Virus record (IMG/VR): IMGVR_UViG_3300021425_002479
Location: 1-42,243 of that record
Length of the DNA: 42,243 nt
Direction: 5' to 3' (one strand)
Source: a virus
The notes beneath the pieces were generated by a model. The model had not been told where the DNA came from. It made no database searches and saw nothing but the letters and a program-made list of their open reading frames with translations. The translations under genes were made by a program, and so were the position numbers. Shown in pieces: positions 1,652 through 15,950 of the stretch. Positions within the stretch are counted from its first letter, which is position 1. Every line of letters starts with the position of its first letter.

Positions 1652-1802
1652 ATTTGATAAATGGTACGATAATCAAAACGATGCAACTAAGGTTTTTCTT
1701 GACAATCAAAGAAAAGAAGATAGTAAACTTATTATGCTCGGTTGGTGGTTAGGCGTTACGTCAGGTAGTCTTTTTACGCTTGTTATTTGCTCGATGCTAT
1801 AA
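1638..1802 (+). CDS. Single-span membrane protein, 54 aa
   Basis: Short ORF overlapping the end of the preceding gene by 14 bases. A charged N-terminal half (KSKFDKWYDNQND) is followed by one hydrophobic helix at about residues 31-52 (LIMLGWWLGVTSGSLFTLVI). Its last 20 bases overlap, tail to tail, the end of the cyclase gene on the other strand, which marks the convergent end of the plus cluster. There is no family match and no terminator hairpin between the two converging genes. Unknown function; possibly a partner of the two UviB-like proteins. Confidence 0.55.
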   Translation: MFKSKFDKWYDNQNDATKVFLDNQRKEDSKLIMLGWWLGVTSGSLFTLVICSML

Positions 1803-3834
1803 AGATACCATTCCAGTCTTTAGGTAAATCTTGAGTTTTTTGGAACTCGCAACGTTCTATCCACATCTTATAGTAGTCTTCCATCTTGCCATTGAAATGA
1901 CGTTTTAGTCTTTCGCAAATATAAATTGCTTCATCAAACTTCTGTGAGCGATATGCATCATGCATACGCTCGTGCATTTCTTTACTTTTATATTGTGCTT
2001 TAGTTCCTTGTAAATCAAGTACAGTGTATATGCTTAGTCCTACGCTTTTACCTTTAACTTGCAAGTCATCTACCTTTAAGTAAAAGAAGTTATCTTTAGT
2101 TGCGTTGTATGTTGCTTCACCAACTAGTAGCAAACATCCATACTCCTTACACTTGCTTTCTATACGAGCCGCTGTACTTACAGCATCCCCGAGAACATCA
2201 TAACTGTGTCTGGCTGTTGACCCCATTTCACCAAGATAGCCAAGACCAGTATTAATACCGGCACCCATACCAATGGGTGGTCGGCCTTCACTTGTAATTT
2301 TTTCATTAAACTTCTCCACTGATTTTAACATTTGTAATCCTGTTTCAACTGCTGTTCTAGGATGGTGCGGATCATCAATAGGAGCATTGTGTATGTGCAT
2401 ACTTGCGTCACCTATGTATTTGATTATCATTCCATCTGCGTCAAGTACAGGTTGTGTAATAGCATCCATATAGCCATTCATTAGTTTAGTTAGGCCTTTT
2501 ACATCATCGCCAAAACTTTCGCCAAGTGGTGTAAAGCCACGCAAGTCTGAGAACAGGATACTTACTTCACGCTTCATACCTTCTTTGATTAGTGCTGGAT
2601 TTTCTTGTAGCATACGCACAACAGTGGGCGATGCATATCCAGCAAACTGTTTTTTAATTTCTTGTTTCTGCAAATACTCGCTTACGAATCGATTAAAAAC
2701 AGCATGTAAACTTACTAGAACAAACGCTAGTATAGGCATAGTTACATCAAGCAAGTACAAGTACTCTTGCCACGCATATAAAGCGCCGTAAGCAAGTCCT
2801 CCTGTTACTACTATTATAAGCAAACCTACAGCCCAAAAAGGCGCAAGAGCCGCAACTACTATAGCAATTACACTAACTGCCGCTGTAGTTGCAAGCTCTG
2901 CTAGATCAGCCCAAAATGGTCTTTCGATTTGGTCGCCGTCTAATAAAGTTTGTAGTGTAACAGCCGCAGGTATATAATTATATTGCGGGCCAGTTGGACT
3001 AGCAATAAGTCCGCCTAAACCTTCTGCTGTTATTCCTACGACAACAGTACGACCTTGGAATTCACTAAAGTCATCCTTGGCCGCACTTATTGTGTCAAAC
3101 TTTTTATTCCAACGTAACCAAATTTGGCCATTAGGGTCAGTGTTAATAATTGGGTAACTCGGAACACGGATCTTTTCAATGCCACCTTCGTTGGCTTTGA
3201 TTTGATAAGATGGTTGACCTGTGGCTAATCTAATTACCTCTACAGCGAGCGATGGATATGTATCCTCCTGGATACGCATGATCAAAGGTACACGGCGTAC
3301 TACACCGTCTACTTCAGGTGCTGTGTTTATAACTCCAACACCACCGGCATTTTGACCTAGTAGAGGAATAGGACCCAGCATGCCTGGCCATTCAAACAAG
3401 AATGGTAATGGGTTTCCTATTTTGGCAACTCCGCGGGGAACGGAATTTTTGTTGACTGATGTGGTTCCCGTCTGGGCAATTACTACACCGTTGTCTGCAA
3501 GTGCATTGGCTAATGCTTCATCTCCACCTAATCTATCAGGTTCGGAAAAAAGTATAGGTATTACAATAATACCTGCACCTGCTTCTCGAAGTTTCCAGAC
3601 TATATCTGCAATTACTTCGCGCTTCCAAGGCCACTGACCATACTTCTCAATGGCAGGTTCGTCAATAGCAACGATTCCTATATCTTGGGATTGCACCGGC
3701 TGATCGGTTTGTTGAAGTAAATCAAATTGCTTCAGCCTAGCAGTTTCCACTACGGTGCTATTCCCATAGTGTAACATAAAAAGTATTAGAGCTGTTATGA
3801 ATGTAACAGACCAATGTGTGATATACTTCGTCAT
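1783..3834 (-). CDS. CHASE2-domain adenylate cyclase, class III, 683 aa
   Basis: Membrane receptor cyclase expected to make cAMP in response to a periplasmic signal. Order: N-terminal transmembrane helix (about 8-24), CHASE2 sensor (about 30-305), three transmembrane helices (about 312-382), then a class III cyclase domain (about 420-610). Metal-binding aspartates D430 (FSDLRGFT) and D476 (YIGDA) are present, as are the adenine-selecting pair K472 and D546. The transition-state Asn of the usual GDxVNxxxR motif is Ser here (GDAVSTAAR, S553); R557 is kept. Activity may therefore be altered. The start ATG has no Shine-Dalgarno; a late box ends 4 nt upstream. It is the last gene of the curli-type operon, which suggests it senses or signals envelope change. 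Confidence 0.93.
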   Translation of the reverse strand: MTKYITHWSVTFITALILFMLHYGNSTVVETARLKQFDLLQQTDQPVQSQDIGIVAIDEPAIEKYGQWPWKREVIADIVWKLREAGAGIIVIPILFSEPDRLGGDEALANALADNGVVIAQTGTTSVNKNSVPRGVAKIGNPLPFLFEWPGMLGPIPLLGQNAGGVGVINTAPEVDGVVRRVPLIMRIQEDTYPSLAVEVIRLATGQPSYQIKANEGGIEKIRVPSYPIINTDPNGQIWLRWNKKFDTISAAKDDFSEFQGRTVVVGITAEGLGGLIASPTGPQYNYIPAAVTLQTLLDGDQIERPFWADLAELATTAAVSVIAIVVAALAPFWAVGLLIIVVTGGLAYGALYAWQEYLYLLDVTMPILAFVLVSLHAVFNRFVSEYLQKQEIKKQFAGYASPTVVRMLQENPALIKEGMKREVSILFSDLRGFTPLGESFGDDVKGLTKLMNGYMDAITQPVLDADGMIIKYIGDASMHIHNAPIDDPHHPRTAVETGLQMLKSVEKFNEKITSEGRPPIGMGAGINTGLGYLGEMGSTARHSYDVLGDAVSTAARIESKCKEYGCLLLVGEATYNATKDNFFYLKVDDLQVKGKSVGLSIYTVLDLQGTKAQYKSKEMHERMHDAYRSQKFDEAIYICERLKRHFNGKMEDYYKMWIERCEFQKTQDLPKDWNGIFIASSK

Positions 3835-3838
3835 AACG

Positions 3839-3845
3839 TATTTAT
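3839..3845 (-). promoter_or_regulatory. T4-type late promoter box before the cyclase
   Basis: ATAAATA on the minus strand, then CGTT, then the ATG at 3834. The box overlaps the stop of the 34-aa gene. The same ATAAATACGTTATG string occurs at 4250, so both genes probably give leaderless late mRNAs. Confidence 0.5.
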
Positions 3846-3949
3846 TATAGCACTAAGATGCCTATAAGAAAGCCGATGTTTAGTCCAACTGAACATATAA
3901 ATGCAAAGTCCTTCCAAAAGTTATACTGTACGTATTCATGTTCTTCCAT
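3845..3949 (-). CDS. Single-span membrane miniprotein, 34 aa
   Basis: Very short ORF starting with ATG at 3949 inside the end of the upstream gene (14-base overlap). An acidic and aromatic start (EEHEYVQYNFW) leads into one hydrophobic helix (about residues 14-34, DFAFICSVGLNIGFLIGIL). It ends exactly at the late box of the CHASE2 cyclase. Overlap with the upstream frame and a single clear helix support translation; there is no homology evidence. It could be a small regulator of the neighbouring membrane cyclase or of curli export; that is only context. Confidence 0.4.
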   Translation of the reverse strand: MEEHEYVQYNFWKDFAFICSVGLNIGFLIGILVL

Positions 3950-4250
3950 TATTTTTGCCCATCAGTTTTGCTTTTAAAAGATCTAAGTCTTTATTACTTT
4001 GCGTTTGCTTTTGATTGCTTGATTGTAAATTATTTCTTTTTGATCGTTGTGCCGTTTCCACCATGCACTCGGCTTGTGCCTGTGAATTATTATTGGATCG
4101 GTCTCGACGGCCAATGCTGCGTTCCACAGCGGCGATCCTTTTTTTAATTGAATTGATTTTTGATTGGAGATCATCTTCGAATGCCCTTTCTGATGGCTCT
4201 GATGCCATCTTCGTAGATCCACAGATTATTTTACATAACCACGCCCTCAT
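3936..4250 (-). CDS. Hypothetical charged coiled-coil protein, 104 aa
   Basis: No family recognised. Residues about 20-50 form a charged helix (DDLQSKINSIKKRIAAVERS), followed by an Asn/Gln/Ser-rich, probably disordered stretch (about 52-88) and a basic C-terminus. The start used is the ATG at 4250, directly behind a late box (ATAAATA, CGTT, ATG). An internal ATG giving MASEPSERAF is the alternative, with a weak GAAG upstream. It lies between the second curlin gene and the cyclase, so it belongs to the curli-type operon by position only. Confidence 0.5.
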   Translation of the reverse strand: MRAWLCKIICGSTKMASEPSERAFEDDLQSKINSIKKRIAAVERSIGRRDRSNNNSQAQAECMVETAQRSKRNNLQSSNQKQTQSNKDLDLLKAKLMGKNNGRT

Positions 4251-4254
4251 AACG

Positions 4255-4261
4255 TATTTAT
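4255..4261 (-). promoter_or_regulatory. T4-type late promoter box inside the curli-type operon
   Basis: ATAAATA on the minus strand ends 4 nt before the ATG at 4250. It sits in the 12-base gap after the second curlin gene, so the last three genes of the operon can be transcribed separately, late. Confidence 0.5.
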
Positions 4262-4262
4262 G

Positions 4263-5321
4263 TTAGTTATTTCTGTTTACAATTATTGAGCAACCGTTTG
4301 CATTTGTACAATACCCGGTTATACTTACACTGTCAGCACTTGTAGTAACATTTTGAGTTAGACTGTAGTTGTATGCACCCCCAGAGTTTGTAAGATCTAT
4401 TGCGGCCGTTGCACTTTGGCTGCCTCGTTGATTAACATCTACTGTATGTCCGTCACCGTCAAGAACAATGTCTGCCCACTTAACGCCGCTGTTGCCTCTT
4501 TGATATAGATCAACCTCATTATTGTCGCCTGTTATTTCAATAAAACCATCGTGTCCTGCTTTGCCCATTTGTGTATGCGTTACACCATTGTTATCGCCGT
4601 CTACTACATTTGCTATATGATGTCCTGCACCGCCACCACCTTGCCTGTTTGTGTCTGTTTGATAACTGTCTAAAACATTGTTATCGCCTGTAACAGTCCA
4701 GTATACTTCGTGATCACCTGTTTCATCTGTATCAGTTGTGCCATCATCGTGTTTGCCCTGCCAAGCATTAATAACATTGCTATTACCTGATACTACAACA
4801 CGGCTAAAGTTATTGTCTGATTCTTGATAACTGTCTAAATCGTTATTGTCTCCGTCGGCTTCTGCATACGATTCGTTGTAATCGCCTTCTTGATATATTG
4901 TAATTGTATTGCCATTATGATCGTAACTGCTACCAGCTTCGGCGTGAGCATCATTATTATCACCTAGTTGTGTTACACTCATTGTGCAGTCTTCACCGTG
5001 ACAGTCTATTACAGCCGCATTGTTATCTCCAGTTTGTGTTAGAGTGCTACTACTGTCTCCTATGTCAGCATTGTATATGCCAAGTGTATTGTTGTTGCCT
5101 GTTTGTGTATAAGTGAATGTAGAAGGACCAAGACTTCCAATCAGCCCTTTATTTGATAGGTTATTCAAATCACCAATCTTATTATTTTCACCATCCTGTG
5201 TAATGGTAAGATCAACATTGTCACCAATTTGGTTTATATAGATTTCATTAGCATAACAGGCTTGAGCACCAAAGTATGCAAGTATAACTACTAATCCTAA
5301 ATGTGTTCCTGTAAATTTCAT
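4263..5321 (-). CDS. Secreted curlin-repeat protein, 352 aa (CsgA/CsgB-like)
   Basis: Predicted amyloid fibre subunit exported through CsgG. An N-terminal signal peptide ends ACYA before the mature start NEIYINQIGDN. The mature chain carries about ten irregular curlin-type repeats of the form x-Q-x-G-D/N-N-x (INQIGDN, ITQDGENN, YTQTGNNN, LTQTGDNN, VTQLGDNN, YQEGDYN, YQESDNN). It is strongly acidic and rich in Asn, Asp and Gly, as in curli and other functional amyloids. Two Cys pairs (near CHGEDC and at the C-terminus) are unusual for CsgA. The start overlaps the FecR stop (ATGA). The mature N-terminus nearly matches that of 6441-7142, so both probably share an export signal. It is about twice the length of E. 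coli CsgA. Confidence 0.85.
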   Translation of the reverse strand: MKFTGTHLGLVVILAYFGAQACYANEIYINQIGDNVDLTITQDGENNKIGDLNNLSNKGLIGSLGPSTFTYTQTGNNNTLGIYNADIGDSSSTLTQTGDNNAAVIDCHGEDCTMSVTQLGDNNDAHAEAGSSYDHNGNTITIYQEGDYNESYAEADGDNNDLDSYQESDNNFSRVVVSGNSNVINAWQGKHDDGTTDTDETGDHEVYWTVTGDNNVLDSYQTDTNRQGGGGAGHHIANVVDGDNNGVTHTQMGKAGHDGFIEITGDNNEVDLYQRGNSGVKWADIVLDGDGHTVDVNQRGSQSATAAIDLTNSGGAYNYSLTQNVTTSADSVSITGYCTNANGCSIIVNRNN

Positions 5322-6466
5322 TGGCTCTGCCTTATATCTATAGAGTTAATACCAGCACCTAGTCTATAATCTAGTATTGCTTCTCCTTGTTGTTCTACGT
5401 TAATAATATATCCCCCTTCTTGGGATAATGTTAATTGTGTCATGTTAACAACACCTGAGTCTGTTCTTCTAAATACGTAATTAGGATCAGCCTTTTCTAA
5501 TTCTATTCTTGTATCTGGATCGTAACCAAATTGTTGGTCTGCAAAAAATTGTTCGTTTTGTTTGTCTAGTTCGTTTCTAAATAATGCCGCTAATTGCATG
5601 TTAAGTTGATCTATCATATCATGTAACAATTCACCTAGGTAATAATCTGTTCCACGCATTAAGTCTGTTACCCATATATCTTTGATGCTATCTGTAAGTG
5701 CATCTGTATCAAGATCATCAAATTCTAAGTAATCAATATCTAAGAATTCAAACTGAGCTCTTTGTTTTTTAAGTATTTCTATTTCTTCTTCGTCGTAAGG
5801 ACTACGCTTTCTTAATATTAAAAGCGATCCTATTTGTTTTTCATCTAAGTCTATTACCAATGGCTTTGATGGTTTTTGGTAACTACTTTTTATTTGTGTT
5901 GTTTGAAATGCTTGGTTCATAATAACGAAACCTGTGTCGCTTTCAACACTAATTTCGCCTACTACACATGTACCGTTAGTATCACAACTAGGTAGCAATG
6001 TAACCATTGTACCACCTATCTCGTCTACAAGCATTATGAAATCTGTACCACGTACACCGATTGTTGCACTTGGTGTTCTTATTTTTACGTTTTGTTGATA
6101 ACGTTTTGCTATTTGTCCAGAAGCGTACCTTACTGTTCCTAATGACGCTTTTAAACTAATTGATCCTATATCGTTTGCTGGATCATATACAAACTCATCA
6201 ATTAAAAGTCTGCTATGATCGGTAAGATCAACACGGGTGTCGTCCACAAAGTCAATACGCATTCTACCTTTTGCGGTAACTGCTGTATCCATACTTTGCA
6301 CACCAACACCCGTGCCTCCTTCAATAACCTGACGATCCCTTTCCAATACACCGGAACCTTTTATTTCGCCAATTGCTCCTGCATCAGGACTAGCGAATGC
6401 CGGCAAACTGGAAAGGGCCACACATATTGCTATGCCCGACTTAATCAGATTGCGTAATATCAACAT
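5318..6466 (-). CDS. FecR-domain protein with C-terminal curlin-like repeat, 382 aa
   Basis: Secreted protein: an N-terminal signal peptide ends LPAFA. A FecR domain follows (about residues 45-150), recognisable by IDFVDDTRVDLTDHSRLLID and PSATIGVRGTDF. The middle is acidic and helical. The last 45 residues look like a curlin repeat pair (TQLTLSQEGGYIINVEQQGE, then GAGINSIDIRQSQ). FecR domains in bacteria bind polymers or transmit envelope signals. Fused to a curlin tail, this protein could be a nucleator or anchor for the fibre, like CsgB. The start chosen is the ATG at 6466, which overlaps the preceding gene; an upstream in-frame TTG at 6496 is possible. Confidence 0.8.
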   Translation of the reverse strand: MLILRNLIKSGIAICVALSSLPAFASPDAGAIGEIKGSGVLERDRQVIEGGTGVGVQSMDTAVTAKGRMRIDFVDDTRVDLTDHSRLLIDEFVYDPANDIGSISLKASLGTVRYASGQIAKRYQQNVKIRTPSATIGVRGTDFIMLVDEIGGTMVTLLPSCDTNGTCVVGEISVESDTGFVIMNQAFQTTQIKSSYQKPSKPLVIDLDEKQIGSLLILRKRSPYDEEEIEILKKQRAQFEFLDIDYLEFDDLDTDALTDSIKDIWVTDLMRGTDYYLGELLHDMIDQLNMQLAALFRNELDKQNEQFFADQQFGYDPDTRIELEKADPNYVFRRTDSGVVNMTQLTLSQEGGYIINVEQQGEAILDYRLGAGINSIDIRQSQ

Positions 6467-7142
6467 CTTGGTTATCACCGCTGAAAGTCGCTTCAATTAT
6501 GTTATCGCCCAATCCGCTTTGGGTTATATCATAAGTGCTACCACCTCCTGTTACATCAATGTTTATCGTATGTCCGTTAACGTCTCCGTTACCGTCTATA
6601 TCAATAGTGAATGTGTTACCAGTATTAGCAAGACTTGCACTATTATCACTTGTTAGTGTAAGTGCTACACTTTCGCCATCAATGTTAGATGTGACTGTGT
6701 TACCGTCACCATCAATAGTAAAGTTTGCTACTAAGTCTTGTGCATCTGCTGTTTCACCTGCATAAATTGTAAATGCGTTTGAATCACCATTTGTTGTTAT
6801 ATTTGCTGTTACGTTTTCACAATTGACACCTGAAGTTTGATCGCAAGTCATAGTAACACTATTACTGTCTCCGATAAAACTCCACGTACCAGTATAGGTA
6901 TTCCCTTTGATAACCGCCGCTATCGTGTTAGAATCACCTTGCTGAGTAATACTAAATGTCATATCGTCGCCATCTAGTGTTACGTCAGTTTGTGATGTAC
7001 CAATCACGTTATTGGAACCATCCTGCACTATGTCTAAATCTAAATTATCACCTATTTGAGCAATATAGATATCATTAGCATAAGATGGAACGGCTATTAA
7101 AAGTGATACACATATTAAAACGCTTTTTATTATTTTTTTCAT
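6441..7142 (-). CDS. Secreted curlin-repeat protein, 233 aa (CsgA/CsgB-like)
   Basis: Signal peptide ends VPSYA before the mature start NDIYIAQIGDN. Curlin-type units follow (IAQIGDN, IVQDGSNN, ITQQGDSN, then more degenerate TINGDGNTV-type strands and ITQSGLGDN, ITQSD at the end). It is acidic, Asn/Asp/Thr-rich and nearly Lys-free after the signal peptide, typical of secreted beta-solenoid amyloids. It follows csgG by 6 bases and its end overlaps the FecR gene. It has one Cys pair (CDQTSGVNC). It probably is one of two fibre subunits exported by the adjacent CsgG/CsgF pore; major versus minor subunit cannot be told from sequence. Confidence 0.83.
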   Translation of the reverse strand: MKKIIKSVLICVSLLIAVPSYANDIYIAQIGDNLDLDIVQDGSNNVIGTSQTDVTLDGDDMTFSITQQGDSNTIAAVIKGNTYTGTWSFIGDSNSVTMTCDQTSGVNCENVTANITTNGDSNAFTIYAGETADAQDLVANFTIDGDGNTVTSNIDGESVALTLTSDNSASLANTGNTFTIDIDGNGDVNGHTINIDVTGGGSTYDITQSGLGDNIIEATFSGDNQDVDITQSD

Positions 7143-7148
7143 ATTATT

Positions 7149-8018
7149 TTAGCCCTCATCCGAGGCCCCATCTGCCTCAGATTTATTATTAATTGTCTCT
7201 ATAGATTCAGTGGTATCTTTTTTAAAAGACCATAAACGTCTACGTTCTCCTTCGTAAATGAGTTCAATAACACCCTGTTCTACCGCCGCCCTCACAGCAT
7301 AGTTTACAGGCTCATTTACAGAAAACCCAGCCTCTGTTTCTACTAATTTAGTTCCTAAATCAAAGAACTTAAAAATATCCGCTCCGGATCTATAGCTTGC
7401 GATTGTTTTTTCGGTTGCTATACTCATTAGCACTTTTCCTGTGCTAACACTTACTAGCCTCATGACTACAGTAACAGTGTCCACTCGGTACTCTGTCTGT
7501 ACGCCTAAGCCTAAATACCTTGCTCCAGCACCGCCAACGGCTGTGTTGCTGTCATATCCAACAACTCCGCCTTCCAGTATCAAACCTGCAAATAGCATTG
7601 GTTTGAGAGGGGTTGGTCCTGAAGGTAATTCTTTTTCGTATACCTCTCTTGTTTGCCTTATTAATTGCCTTTCTTTAATTAAATTATCCATTCCAACACG
7701 TTCGACTACTTGAAACCATTGTCCTTGTCCAACGTCTTGTAGGGCCTTAATGACCCAAACTTCACTGCCTTGTGTTACCGCACTACTTAAACTTGCTACC
7801 ATGTCCGAAGGTTTACGTTGACCAGTTTTATCATTAAAGCCATAAACGGCTATAGTAATTTTTGGTCCGTCAACTGGTGGAACATCTTCCATACGTTTCT
7901 GTATTGGACTCTCTTGTAGAGTAGGAGATGTAGCAGTATCCTCAAGTATTTGTAAACTTGGGTTCATTGCACATCCACCCAACATAGCAAGTGTTGTTAA
8001 GATTGCTAGGATTCTCAA
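7149..8018 (-). CDS. csgG: CsgG-family outer-membrane secretion lipoprotein, 289 aa
   Basis: Pore of the curli (type VIII) secretion pathway; in E. coli CsgG forms a nonameric outer-membrane channel for unfolded curlin. A type II signal peptide with lipobox LGGC (Cys16) is present. The core matches CsgG: ITIAVYGFNDKTGQRKP near residue 55, the ALQDVGQGQWFQVVER block near 92-107, the transmembrane-hairpin region (about 140-200) and FDLGTKLVETEAGFSVNEP. The length is close to E. coli CsgG (277 aa), with a short extra acidic tail. It overlaps csgF by 4 bases and precedes the curlin gene by 6, as expected for one secretion unit. A phage carrying it is notable. Confidence 0.95.
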   Translation of the reverse strand: MRILAILTTLAMLGGCAMNPSLQILEDTATSPTLQESPIQKRMEDVPPVDGPKITIAVYGFNDKTGQRKPSDMVASLSSAVTQGSEVWVIKALQDVGQGQWFQVVERVGMDNLIKERQLIRQTREVYEKELPSGPTPLKPMLFAGLILEGGVVGYDSNTAVGGAGARYLGLGVQTEYRVDTVTVVMRLVSVSTGKVLMSIATEKTIASYRSGADIFKFFDLGTKLVETEAGFSVNEPVNYAVRAAVEQGVIELIYEGERRRLWSFKKDTTESIETINNKSEADGASDEG

Positions 8019-8485
8019 AAGTTAAACTCCCCCAATCCTGGAATAGTAATCTCTGTAACTGATCCATCTTCTCCAATAATTGTAAGTGTAATACTTCCTG
8101 TTACTGTATCTTTGATCCAACTTATTGTGTTGCCTTCAACTTCTGCTGTGCCGGCATTTGCACAAGTGTCGCCACAATCAGCAAACATGGCATCAACCAT
8201 TTGCTTACTAAGTGTTGCGTAAATTCTACTTTCTAAGTTTCTAATAAACTTATTGAGAACGCTATTTTCTAATTCACGTTCTATTCGCCTCGCCTCTGCT
8301 TCTGCTTCTTTACGAAGTTCTTGCTTGCGATTATGCTGTAACTGTTCTACACTTAAAACGTGTGTAGAGTAACCATTGCCATAATGAAATGCTGGATTTT
8401 TAAATTTCCATGTTAGTTCAGTAGCACCGACAGGTGAATAAACTAGTACTAGAGTTAGTGCTAGTATTTGAGTTAGTCTCTTCAT
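8015..8485 (-). CDS. csgF: CsgF-like curli assembly protein, 156 aa
   Basis: CsgF binds the outer face of the CsgG pore and attaches the curli nucleator to the surface. The sequence has a signal peptide ending GATE and the CsgF N-terminal signature ELTWKFKNPAFHYGNGY (E. coli CsgF: TWQFRNPNFGGNPNNG type). A charged helix (about 55-95) and a beta-rich C-terminus with one Cys pair follow. The true start is the ATG at 8485, which has ACGGAG upstream. A GTG 27 bases earlier is in frame but lacks a ribosome site. It is the first gene of the operon. Curli accessory CsgE is not seen here. Confidence 0.87.
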   Translation of the reverse strand: MKRLTQILALTLVLVYSPVGATELTWKFKNPAFHYGNGYSTHVLSVEQLQHNRKQELRKEAEAEARRIERELENSVLNKFIRNLESRIYATLSKQMVDAMFADCGDTCANAGTAEVEGNTISWIKDTVTGSITLTIIGEDGSVTEITIPGLGEFNF

Positions 8486-8537
8486 ATATATCTCCGTTAC
8501 GAACGCCCTCACGCTCTGTTCATCGAATTACCACTTG

Positions 8538-9765: not shown

Positions 9766-10473
9766 CTATATAGAATATTTATCTAATTTAGGGAACAACA
9801 TATCAGTACAGAACTTGTCTACATCTTCTTCTGCAAGTCCAAGTGTTTTCATTACGTTTGCTGTGTGGGGATTTTGTTGCTGGTTTTCACAATAATAGTT
9901 CTGTGCGGCTAGTGTCATATACTTGTCACCGTAGCCTTGAAACTGTGGTACTTCGTCAAACCATGCTTCTAAGTTTGCTAGTGCTAGATCAATAATTGCA
10001 ACAGCCTCTTCTTCTGTACGTACATTGCCTGCGGCAATCATACTATCTGTAAAAATGTTTTGAGCCCATTCAGGAAGTGTTCTTTGTTTAGTTGGTACAA
10101 AGTCTTTTACAGCATCTCTATAACCTTCTACCATTGGATGGTCATCGCCGCCACTACTTGCACTAAAGTCATGGAAGGCCCCAGTCATTTTATTTTTACC
10201 TGCAATAACATCAAAGCCGTATATTGGAGCATCGTTGTCTAGTGTTGGGAAACAACATACATGCATCATCCATAAGCCTTTAGACTCACGTGCATCTACA
10301 ACGTCTATGTGTGCTCTGCGTACATATTTGTTAGCCCATACACGATTGATCCAGCCATTGTCAGGCTGATTAAAATGCGACAGCCCTGGCTCTTCTATTT
10401 CGTCTGCATGTTTTTCAAATATTTCTAATATTTGATCCTGACACTCAATCAGTCTGTCCCATATAATGCTCAA
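9766..10473 (-). CDS. pcyX: Ferredoxin-dependent bilin reductase, PcyX-like, 235 aa
   Basis: Reduces biliverdin IX-alpha with ferredoxin electrons to a phycobilin; phage PcyX enzymes make phycoerythrobilin. The FDBR core is clear: RRAHIDVVDARESKGLWMMH, then APIYGFDVIAGKNKMTGAF and HDFSA, where the conserved catalytic Asp sits. The length of 235 aa fits PebS/PcyX rather than the larger PcyA. It lies directly downstream of, and overlaps by 29 bases, a heme oxygenase gene that supplies its substrate. The start must be the TTG at 10473: an in-frame stop lies just before it, no ATG occurs nearby, and GGAG sits 7 nt upstream. PcyX versus PebS cannot be settled without a tree. Confidence 0.88.
   Translation of the reverse strand: MSIIWDRLIECQDQILEIFEKHADEIEEPGLSHFNQPDNGWINRVWANKYVRRAHIDVVDARESKGLWMMHVCCFPTLDNDAPIYGFDVIAGKNKMTGAFHDFSASSGGDDHPMVEGYRDAVKDFVPTKQRTLPEWAQNIFTDSMIAAGNVRTEEEAVAIIDLALANLEAWFDEVPQFQGYGDKYMTLAAQNYYCENQQQNPHTANVMKTLGLAEEDVDKFCTDMLFPKLDKYSI
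9776..9782 (-). promoter_or_regulatory. T4-type late promoter box before 8619-9752
   Basis: GATAAATA-type box inside the last codons of the bilin reductase gene, 23 bases before the ATG at 9752. It leaves a leader carrying the AGGGAA ribosome site. Confidence 0.45.
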
Positions 10474-11011
10474 TGTCTAACTCCATTAGTTCTTTAAATA
10501 AATTTGTTGCAGAGTCAAAAACGTATTTTGCTTCTTCAGCCATATCGTCATTGATCTTTGCACGGACTTTGTCCTTGAGTACAGAAGTATCTTCATCAAA
10601 CTGATACATTCTAGCCTCGCCCGGTATACGTTTTTTAATCATTTGTCCGCCGCTAAGGTCACCCATGTGTAACACATATATGTGAGCCATTATTTTTGCT
10701 GGATCAGCCATTATTGTTTTCATATGACTAATGTACTCATTTGTACTTTCAACTATCGGCGGCGGTAGTTGATTATTCCATAATTCTAAGTAATCATCAT
10801 GGATTGCGTTCTTACGTCTTATTGCATATAGATCATCTAGTAAACCGTGTGTAGTTGCAACAGCTTCTAGTAAATCATATTTCTTATGTTGATTCCATAA
10901 GTATGTTGCGTAGAACTGTGGATTAATTTTTCCACTCATCAATACTTTAACAAACTCTTGTCTTTCTGCTTCTTTATGATGTTCCCATGTTAATTCTTTT
11001 AAATTTCCCAT
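10445..11011 (-). CDS. ho1: Heme oxygenase, HO1 family, 188 aa
   Basis: Opens heme to biliverdin IX-alpha, CO and iron in the cytoplasm. The proximal heme-ligand His is in LTWEHHKEAER near residue 11, and the distal-helix signature HMGDLSGGQMI is near residue 115. The length is typical of bacterial and phage HO1. The start chosen is the ATG at 11011, three bases after the clpS stop; an upstream in-frame TTG at 11029 would overlap clpS. The gene overlaps the downstream bilin reductase, so the two enzymes are translationally coupled and form a heme-to-phycobilin pathway. Iron or CO release from heme are alternative benefits to the phage. Confidence 0.92.
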   Translation of the reverse strand: MGNLKELTWEHHKEAERQEFVKVLMSGKINPQFYATYLWNQHKKYDLLEAVATTHGLLDDLYAIRRKNAIHDDYLELWNNQLPPPIVESTNEYISHMKTIMADPAKIMAHIYVLHMGDLSGGQMIKKRIPGEARMYQFDEDTSVLKDKVRAKINDDMAEEAKYVFDSATNLFKELMELDIEHYMGQTD

Positions 11012-11012
11012 A

Positions 11013-11315
11013 TTACTCGTTTTCTTCAACCCTTATTTGCAGGGGGAACCCCTGGTTTCTACTAAGTGTTGTTGCTTCAGCTGCTTTTACTTCTGCAATC
11101 TCATACGAGTAAACTCCTACAACACCACTTCCTTCTGTATGTATCGTCATTGTTATTTCTTCTGCTACAGCCTGGCTGTGTTTGAATACAGATATTAATA
11201 ATGACACGACCCATTCCATAGGCGTTGCGGCATCATTGAGAAATACTACCTTGTATTGACTAGGTTTCTTAATCTCTTGTTTGATTTTTTCATCTAATTG
11301 TACGTCTACCGACAT
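11013..11315 (-). CDS. clpS: ClpS-like ATP-dependent protease adaptor, 100 aa
   Basis: Adaptor that delivers N-degron substrates to host ClpAP. The ClpS core is plain: YKVVFLNDAATPMEWVV (N-degron pocket region with the ND and M), FKHSQAVAEEITMTIH and GVVGVYSYEIAEVKA. The length matches host ClpS. The Shine-Dalgarno GAGGAAAG lies 3 nt before the ATG, right behind the hsp20 terminator T-run. No ClpA is present in the window, so it would act on the host protease, perhaps redirecting it. It forms a unit with ho1 and the bilin reductase downstream. Confidence 0.92.
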   Translation of the reverse strand: MSVDVQLDEKIKQEIKKPSQYKVVFLNDAATPMEWVVSLLISVFKHSQAVAEEITMTIHTEGSGVVGVYSYEIAEVKAAEATTLSRNQGFPLQIRVEENE

Positions 11316-11362: not shown

Positions 11363-11827
11363 TTACTTCTCAGCAACTTCACCATCGATTGTAAAACCAT
11401 TATTGATTTTAATTTTCTTTGGTTGTAGTTCCTCAGGAACCTCACGCTTCAAATGAATGTTAAGCATACCTAGTTCAAGGCCTGCACTTTCAACATCAAC
11501 GTGATCTGCAAGTGTAAACTCCCTACGGAAGTTACGTCCGCCAATACCTTTGTGTAGGTAATTGACATCCTCGTCCCCTTTAGGTGCTGTTCCTTCAATC
11601 TTTAAGATATTTTTATCTTTCTCAATTGAAAGATTGTCCATACCAAAGCCAGCAACCGCTAATGAGATCATGTACTCATCTTCGTTTATCTGTGCAATGT
11701 TATATGGGGGATACCCTTGTCCTTTAGCAGAATTTTCGAATACTCTGTCCATTTCGTCGAACATTCTATCGAATCCTACAAAGTGTCTGTGAATTGAGGG
11801 TAAGTCTAAGGTTGATATTCTTGTCAT
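11363..11827 (-). CDS. hsp20: Small heat shock protein, Hsp20/IbpA family, 154 aa
   Basis: ATP-independent holdase chaperone. It has the IbpA-type N-terminal region with the GFDRMFDEMDRVFE and YPPYNI signatures, then the alpha-crystallin domain (about residues 40-130) with MISLAVAGF, RNFRREFTLAD and a GMLNIHLKREVPE strand. A C-terminal IxI-type motif is present (KKIKIN). Hsp20 is common in T4-like cyanophages, where it may help scaffold or virion assembly. The start has AGGAG 7 nt upstream and a TATAAATC box 24 bases upstream. A strong terminator follows. Confidence 0.95.
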   Translation of the reverse strand: MTRISTLDLPSIHRHFVGFDRMFDEMDRVFENSAKGQGYPPYNIAQINEDEYMISLAVAGFGMDNLSIEKDKNILKIEGTAPKGDEDVNYLHKGIGGRNFRREFTLADHVDVESAGLELGMLNIHLKREVPEELQPKKIKINNGFTIDGEVAEK

Positions 11828-11920: not shown

Positions 11921-11927
11921 TATTTAT
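11921..11927 (-). promoter_or_regulatory. T4-type late promoter box overlapping the groES stop
   Basis: ATAAATA overlapping the groES TGA, continuing AACGTG. The same ATAAATAAACGTG string occurs in front of pstS. Confidence 0.5.
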
Positions 11928-12214
11928 CATTGTAAAACCGCTACTATGTCTTTTTCGACAATAGTTGTGTATTTTACATCTGATATTTCATATGATTCGC
12001 TGACGTTTGGGTTGACTAGTATTCTAGCACCAACTTCAACTTCAGGCACGATAAAGTTACCTTTATCATCATATTTACCAGGACCAACAGCCATAACTTC
12101 AGCTTCCATAATAGTATCGATCTGAGCTTTAGCAATAAAAATACCGCCTGCTGTTTGCTCCTCTGGTTCGTCTATCTTGATAATTATCTTATCAAGAATT
12201 GGTCTTAAGTTCAT
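11927..12214 (-). CDS. groES: GroES-like co-chaperonin, 95 aa
   Basis: Lid of the GroEL chaperonin; T4 gp31 plays this role in phage head folding. The sequence is a full-length Cpn10: MNLRPILDKIIIKIDEPEEQ, then a mobile loop containing AGGIFIAK (the GGI[FV][IL] GroEL-binding tripeptide), AVGPGKYDDKGNFIVPEVEVG and IVEKDIVAVL. The family's roof-loop and beta-barrel spacing are kept. It is driven by the best sigma70 promoter in the window (TTGACT, 17 bp, TATAAT), so early expression is likely. It probably replaces or modifies host GroES for capsid protein folding. Confidence 0.95.
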   Translation of the reverse strand: MNLRPILDKIIIKIDEPEEQTAGGIFIAKAQIDTIMEAEVMAVGPGKYDDKGNFIVPEVEVGARILVNPNVSESYEISDVKYTTIVEKDIVAVLQ

Positions 12215-13920: not shown

Positions 13921-15087
13921 CTAATTACCTATTGTGTTAGACTCATAAACCCGATTATGAGTTTGCGTACAACGAACAAACGTTGTACATTTACTCAGAT
14001 GCTTTAATTTAATAGCACCTGCGTAAGTGCAAGTCGATCTTACTCCTCCTAAAATATCTTGTAAAGTTACCCCTACAGATCCTTTATAAGGAATTAATAC
14101 CGTCCTGCCTTCAGAGGATCGATAATCTTTTAATCCTCCAAAATGTTTATCATTAGCACTACGACTACTCATGCCGTAGAACTGTACGAATCTTTTTCTT
14201 TCTATACCATCTTCCCAAGTTATCGATTGAGTTTGGCCATCAAGTGTTTGTTCATTTCGAACCCATTCACCTGTTTTGTAAAATTTTTCAATTACTTCGC
14301 CGCCACCTTCATCGTGTCCGGCAAGCATACCGCCTAGCATCACAAAGTCGGCTCCGCCAGCAAATGCTTTTGCTATATCGCCGGGTGTAGAACAACCGCC
14401 ATCAGCAATAATATGTCCGCCAAGACCATGAGCAGAATCAGCACACTCAATAACTGCGCTAAGTTGTGGATACCCAACTCCCGTTTGAATCCGAGTAGTG
14501 CAAACACTACCAGGTCCAATACCAACTTTAACAATATCAGCACCAGCAAGAATAAGTTCCTCCGTCATTTCTCCTGTAACTACGTTGCCTGCAATAATAA
14601 CAATGTGTGGAAAGTTACGTCTAAAGCCTCGCACAAATTCTACAAAACGTTGACTATATCCATTAGCAACATCAATACAAATATACTTTAATTGATTATT
14701 TACACGTTCGTATACGTTCTTAAATTTAATATAATCATTGTCTGTAATACCAATACTCATTGCAACATAGTCTGTGCGTTCTTGTGTATCACTGCCGAAA
14801 TACTCTACAAGTTCTTCTTCAGTATATGTTTTTACAAGACAAGTCATTACCTGTCCTGTTGCAAGATAATCTGCCATTTCCATTGTACCGACACCATCCA
14901 TGTTACTTGCAATAATTGGAATACCACTATAATGATATTCAGCGGAATTATCTGGAAATGGTGGATTATAATTCCTATATGTAAATTTACGATCTAAGTC
15001 TACTTGTTTACGTGAGCCTAGTGTACTACGCTTAGGACGAATGAGTACATCTTTATAGTCTAGTTTCATATCTTCTTCGATACGCAT
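13921..15087 (-). CDS. guaC: GMP reductase, GuaC, 388 aa
   Basis: Converts GMP to IMP with NADPH, linking guanine and adenine nucleotide pools. The N-terminus [21 protein letters not shown] is close to E. coli GuaC, fixing the start (TAATG overlap with the upstream stop). The catalytic loop [20 protein letters not shown] carries the active Cys. The phosphate-binding segments [20 protein letters not shown] and [15 protein letters not shown] follow. It has no CBS domains, which argues against IMP dehydrogenase. It is about 40 residues longer than E. coli GuaC at the C-terminus. Such a gene would help remodel host purines for AT-rich phage DNA; that is inference. Confidence 0.95.
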
Positions 15088-15668: not shown

Positions 15669-15950
15669 TTAGAAACCTAGTTCGTTTTGTCTTTTGGCTA
15701 AGGCCTTCTTATGTCTATTGATTGCGGCTTTCTTTTTACGGTTACGTTTTTCACATGGTTTCTCGTAAAACTGCCTTTCACGTACTTCTTGAATAATGCC
15801 TGCCTCTTGTACTTTCTTTTTAAAAATACGCAATGCTTTGGTTACATCATTGTTTCGAACTTCTACAGCAAGGCCTTTGGGTTGTTCTTTATTTTTATTG
15901 TTGTCCCAACGCTTGCCACCAAAATTCTTAAATTTGTTATTTTGTCGCAC
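15669..15950 (-). CDS. rpsU: Ribosomal protein bS21, phage-encoded, 93 aa
   Basis: Small-subunit protein that sits near the mRNA 3'-end of 16S rRNA and helps initiation. The core LAVEVRNNDVTKALRIFKKK and VRERQFYEKPCEKRNRKKKA matches alphaproteobacterial bS21; the 25-residue basic N-terminal extension (MRQNNKFKNFGGKRW) is also seen there. The start is GTG at 15950, preceded by GGAGAG, inside the end of the upstream gene (14-base overlap). A near-consensus sigma70 promoter lies 60-90 bases upstream. Phage bS21 may replace the host protein to favour phage mRNAs, particularly those lacking strong ribosome sites. Confidence 0.94.
   Translation of the reverse strand: MRQNNKFKNFGGKRWDNNKNKEQPKGLAVEVRNNDVTKALRIFKKKVQEAGIIQEVRERQFYEKPCEKRNRKKKAAINRHKKALAKRQNELGF

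Follow-up and report, generated by a model that had tools for sequence, protein, structure and literature searches.

Marine contigs carrying hemO and pcyX, which encode a heme oxygenase (HO) and a ferredoxin-dependent bilin reductase (FDBR), have been described as Mosig-like pelagiphage (Nat Commun 2024, PMC11480375). Mosig itself, Pelagibacter phage EXVC030M of the Kyanoviridae, is a 141-kb pelagimyophage whose cassette adjoins 2OG oxygenases and neck genes. The assayed enzyme, PcyX_EBK42635 (PDB ID: 5owg), belongs to the hemO-pcyX cassette of marine phages. A related freshwater phage enzyme, the FDBR of CB_2, has PcyA activity, which has been ascribed to the absence of Asp55 (Nat Commun 2024, PMC11480375). 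It is still not clear why phages that infect non-photosynthetic bacteria should synthesize a pigment used for light harvesting. The locus described here lies in a 42,243-nucleotide stretch of viral DNA, all of which was analyzed and which we refer to as the window. We put at roughly 80% the probability that it represents a hemO-pcyX cassette carried by a marine T4-like jumbo phage, probably with an alphaproteobacterial host, that leads from heme to phycoerythrobilin (PEB), a bilin most likely employed as a small molecule or for a host protein.

The gene pair and the identity of the reductase

Both genes are on the minus strand. HO occupies 10445..11011 (ATG start, 188 aa, PF01126 E=2.9e-19) and the FDBR 9766..10473 (235 aa, PF05996 E=1.7e-14, a score above the curated cut-off in the Pfam profile search of the window ORFs). 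The FDBR begins with a TTG codon at 10471-10473, inside a 29-bp coding overlap with HO (10445..10473, minus strand), and this arrangement is kept in relatives. A preliminary description, made from the sequence alone, had given the outer coordinates of the pair (9766-11011), both enzyme identities, the overlap and the TTG start within it, and the ORFs and Pfam matches agree with it throughout. The HO has the features of an HO-1 type enzyme, namely the Heme_oxygenase domain, the proximal histidine (His12) and the GDxSGG motif of the distal helix (G117, D118, G121 and G122); across 49 non-redundant homologs, the histidine and motif are conserved in 95% or more. Leaving aside the first twelve codons of either gene, dN/dS against five relatives is 0.05-0.17 for HO and 0.07-0.16 for the FDBR, ratios that are rough because several of the pairs have a high dS. 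Strong purifying selection acts on both genes. Given these low ratios and the presence of relatives on at least 218 viral contig stretches, the pair is not a chance occurrence.

We compared start codons among 51 non-redundant FDBRs, defining a long overlap as an FDBR start 14-41 bases inside HO. TTG is used by 18 of the 22 long-overlap FDBRs as opposed to 2 of the 21 that are apart from HO (Fisher p = 2e-6, uncorrected for kinship), a difference that makes TTG a conserved property of the overlap. A Shine-Dalgarno-like motif is found in all 22 long-overlap representatives; in the window it is GGAG at 10481..10484 on the minus strand, within the HO coding sequence and 7 bases 5' of the TTG. The TTG may hold PcyX below HO in amount, as had been suggested, but the strong ribosome-binding site argues against such a lowering, and constraint from the HO reading frame may be the reason for the codon. 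The overlapping arrangement should couple translation of PcyX to that of HO.

The reductase had been called PcyX-like, and a maximum-likelihood FDBR tree upholds that assignment. The tree has 59 rows and includes PcyA sequences (cyanobacterial, alphaproteobacterial and cyanophage) together with PebA, PebB and PebS. In it, the window FDBR lies inside the PcyX clade with 5owg and Mosig (bootstrap/SH-aLRT 100/99, bootstrap convergence being incomplete) and outside PcyA, PebA, PebB and PebS, the position of PebS itself being unsure because it forms a long branch. In phmmer, the top PDB match is 5owg (E=4.7e-80), with PcyA structures at 3.7e-12 or weaker. An AlphaFold2 model (pLDDT 92.9) also has 5owg as its best Foldseek match (E=2.2e-17), and the bilin reductase fold is thus indicated by both the model and the PF05996 score. 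Window residues D57, H71 and D88 are the equivalents of PcyX Asp55, His69 and Asp86, which are invariant across aligned homologs from 82 loci; the catalytic Asp, whose loss the preliminary description had named as evidence against its assignment, is therefore kept in the window and in every one of these homologs. In the alignment, every one of the 26 PcyX rows has Asp at the Asp55 position, and every one of the 18 PcyA-type rows has Glu there. By sequence and by model, the window FDBR is a true PcyX.

Window PcyX shares 51.5% identity with the 5owg protein, which for its part is 84% identical to Mosig PcyX. In these terms the assayed PcyX is a member of the pelagiphage (Mosig-like) branch, and the window PcyX of another. 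PEB would be the product of the window enzyme by analogy with its family, in which the PcyX assayed is from the Mosig-like branch only. The CB_2 enzyme, a viral FDBR in a similar cassette that proved to be a PcyA (PMC11480375), raises the alternative that the window reductase makes phycocyanobilin, the more so as the assayed PcyX comes from outside the jumbo branch. We regard this as very unlikely, since the tree places the window FDBR inside PcyX and since the Asp55 equivalent absent in CB_2 is present in the window and all aligned homologs. In the same tree, the sister group of PcyX consists of alphaproteobacterial FDBRs (Falsiroseomonas/Roseomonas/Acetobacteraceae, loci L201-L205) with the Glu of PcyA-type enzymes, which hints at where PcyX came from.

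The carrier phage and the neighborhood of the pair

The preliminary description took the carrier for a heterotroph-type phage, and it is indeed not of the cyanophage type. A 335-kb contig, PBPT01000016.1 (G046:C57, loci L240-L256), runs collinear with the window, and 37 window ORFs are matched in it, nearly all in order. The terminase of this contig is nearest that of PA5oct (54%), then that of Phosso (48%), and its capsid is nearest that of Phosso (69%, the range for PA5oct and Phosso being 65-69%); in another relative, the DNA polymerase comes closest to those of Phosso and Atu_ph07 (47-50%). A PF07068 (gp23) search gave no capsid in 20 partial records, and one was later found in the 335-kb contig. 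No match to the neck, sheath, portal or terminase of Mosig is found in the window or in three large relatives, and the Mosig terminase (TerL) shares just 32% identity with the terminase of the 335-kb contig. Sharing no Mosig structural genes, the carrier falls outside the Mosig-type pelagimyophages (Kyanoviridae). Taken together, the collinearity, the nearest terminase and capsid and the unmatched Mosig structural proteins lead us to read the window as a genome fragment from a marine T4-like jumbo phage.

The 335-kb contig also carries an alpha-type permuted tmRNA, a 7Fe ferredoxin and a ClpA-like protein. The alphaproteobacterial permuted tmRNA family RF01849 is found both in this contig and in relative G012 (145 and 74 bits). 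The window itself has no tmRNA, and the part of it that matches has no other Rfam family either. It is the tmRNA type of these two relatives, not the window, that points to alphaproteobacteria as hosts of the lineage, and these giant phages probably infect non-photosynthetic bacteria.

The 335-kb contig is binned as a Neomarinimicrobiota MAG. We considered a bacterial origin of PcyX and rejected it: outside the Alphaproteobacteria, the cyanobacteria and one Nonlabens, whose proteins are at most 33% identical, only four MAG contigs encode it. We read these four as misbinned phage because the 335-kb contig has the gene content of a phage and each of the other three either is short or stops where the match does. 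Four other loci (L072, L074, L078 and L081) have PcyX without HO within the flank examined, in a different neighborhood.

Three genes upstream of the pair, also on the minus strand, encode ClpS (11013..11315, PF02617 E=3.6e-27), the small heat-shock protein Hsp20 (11363..11827, PF00011 E=6.6e-15) and the co-chaperonin GroES (11927..12214, PF00166 E=3.5e-21), just as first described. ClpS residues N27, D28 and H59 are invariant among 45 homologs. The clpS stop codon is one base before the HO start and HO overlaps the FDBR, and we therefore read clpS, HO and the FDBR as one operon. Most of 80 fetched viral loci share the order [hsp20, dnaK, groES or groEL]-clpS-HO-FDBR. HO is present in 49 of 51 non-redundant loci, clpS in 45 and hsp20 in 45; GroES is a variable neighbor, found in 9 of the 51 representatives.

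The frequency of clpS and hsp20, the single base that separates clpS from HO in the window and the ClpA encoded by relatives could be taken to mean that ClpS, Hsp20 and GroES work together with HO and PcyX as a functional module, for example a proteolysis switch on tetrapyrrole enzymes. We consider such a module highly improbable given that the neighborhood predates the cassette. PA5oct has bS21, hsp20 and clpS in the same order as the window without HO or an FDBR, and ClpA and ClpS are widespread among cultured jumbo phages. The hsp20-clpS block, of which Hsp20 is an ancestral member, is on this evidence older than the cassette, and HO-PcyX was therefore probably placed beside a pre-existing block. 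The chaperone neighbors say little about the pigment and need not act on it, and as an explanation of the pair we have dropped them.

Other genes nearby are of interest in their own right. An IMPDH/GMP reductase-like gene (13921-15087 in the window) and ribosomal protein bS21 (15669-15950) stand beside the cassette in most relatives. One relative has a ClpA-type AAA+ unfoldase (L093:6929-9169) near a DnaJ (L093:5604-6443), with ClpS elsewhere in that genome; the three make up a near-complete phage proteostasis kit. The window further contains a curli (type VIII secretion) cluster, here in a jumbo phage, at 1783-8512 on the minus strand. It comprises CsgF (8015-8512), CsgG (7149-8018), curlin-repeat proteins (6441-7142 and 4263-5321), FecR (5318-6496) and a CHASE2-adenylate cyclase (1783-3834), all on that strand, and the same arrangement is known from pelagiphages (PMC9599517).

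Cassette variants and the fate of the bilin

The window has the plain two-gene form of the cassette, HO and PcyX. Relatives insert a flavin-dependent halogenase (PF04820, 1.7e-89), a carbon-nitrogen hydrolase (PF00795) or a 2OG-Fe(II) oxygenase between HO and the FDBR. The carbon-nitrogen hydrolase, of the nitrilase superfamily, is found there at L031:7205-7999, at L035:3989-4756 and at 49998-51053 of the 335-kb contig. The halogenase genes (L021:6484-8004 and 17 related loci) overlap or nearly abut those of HO and PcyX. A scan with one halogenase sequence reached near copies only, and an alignment query widened its reach. The alignment-based scan returned at least 18 halogenase loci at 52% identity or more, with 18 of the 18 listed lying between HO and the FDBR; among the matches listed, the fetched viral halogenases at 37% identity or less had neither HO nor an FDBR in their flanks, which extended up to 6 kb, some contigs being short. 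The halogenase motifs are invariant in ten sequences, and the nearest solved relatives are tryptophan halogenases. That the gene is locked between HO and PcyX suggests a halogenase subfamily acting on a heme-derived compound. On a speculative reading, which we think less likely than not, the jumbo-phage cassette would be a small pathway to a tailored bilin, in which the halogenase may chlorinate or brominate the bilin or a precursor to give a halogenated phage metabolite, the window possibly representing the unmodified core.

From the known activities of the two families, HO would open host heme to biliverdin IX-alpha with release of iron and CO, and PcyX would carry out the four-electron reduction of biliverdin via 15,16-dihydrobiliverdin to PEB. 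Electrons would reach PcyX from a ferredoxin, perhaps the 7Fe ferredoxin encoded by relatives. This protein, whose nearest PDB entry is 7Fe ferredoxin I, occurs in ten relatives, namely the 335-kb contig plus 9 of 45 records, and could feed electrons to PcyX. Plant-type ferredoxin (PF00111) was found in none of the relatives, the exception being a Fer2 protein in Mosig, and ferrochelatase (PF00762) likewise in none of them; the annotated ferrochelatase of Mosig has no match to the Pfam model.

The preliminary description had called for a search for a bilin-binding protein or phytochrome. We searched for the PHY domain and phycobilisome families and found no phage partner of these kinds; as the window is a genome fragment, a partner for the bilin, or a ferredoxin, could lie beyond its ends. 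The PHY domain is absent from 47 records and from the genome bin holding the 335-kb contig, and phycobilisome proteins are absent from every phage record. Judging from these absences, a phage-supplied antenna or phytochrome would be an unlikely use of the bilin.

The lack of a phage partner in these families is also consistent with the cassette serving to break down heme for iron or CO, both of which HO alone frees, with PcyX merely clearing biliverdin and its product useless. That biliverdin can inhibit HO is a further point in favor of this reading. This reading is rather unlikely, however, as purifying selection on PcyX is as strong as that on HO, as the four loci noted above have PcyX without HO nearby, and as in relatives the two genes flank an added, dedicated halogenase, carbon-nitrogen hydrolase or 2OG oxygenase. 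Many alphaproteobacteria possess bacteriophytochromes, and the bilin might instead be a chromophore for such a host light sensor during infection. Natural bacteriophytochromes bind biliverdin itself, however, which HO alone would supply. Although a viral PcyA has served a functional phytochrome in laboratory work (PMC11480375), the PHY domain is absent from the phages searched, and we think a host light sensor quite unlikely. Most likely, PEB would act as a small molecule, whether in redox, in signaling or as a further-modified product, or be used by a host protein.

Comparison with described cassettes and phages

The window and the marine-phage cassette of PcyX_EBK42635 have the same FDBR clade, catalytic residues and gene order with HO. 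They differ in sequence, in the jumbo T4-like carrier, in the clpS-HO-PcyX order and in the TTG start of PcyX. HO and PcyX are adjacent and overlapping in Mosig as well, at identities of 45% and 52%, respectively, whereas the annotated structural proteins of Mosig have no match in the window. The window does not contain the three-gene hemO-pcyA/X-alaS cassette: no 5-aminolevulinate synthase (AlaS) is found in this fragment, and the family is above its cut-off in 7 of 47 related records. The nearest cultured relatives of the carrier are PA5oct (Arenbergviridae), Sinorhizobium phage Phosso and Agrobacterium phage Atu_ph07, which resemble it in capsid and terminase (PA5oct and Phosso), in DNA polymerase (Phosso and Atu_ph07) and in ClpA/ClpS, and whose records contain no match to an FDBR. 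We found no published link between pcyX and jumbo phages, which is weak evidence as the literature search covered few subscription papers. The enzymes are of a known kind, and the carrier lineage looks undescribed for the hemO-pcyX trait. Besides the Mosig-like pelagiphages there is thus a second, unrelated carrier of pcyX, jumbo phages distantly related to cultured Rhizobiales and Pseudomonas phages, with hints of an alphaproteobacterial host and with a ferredoxin of their own. In relatives of the window phage, a halogenase confined to the cassette offers a testable chemical answer to the question of why such phages make this pigment, namely that the product is a modified bilin and not a pigment for an antenna.
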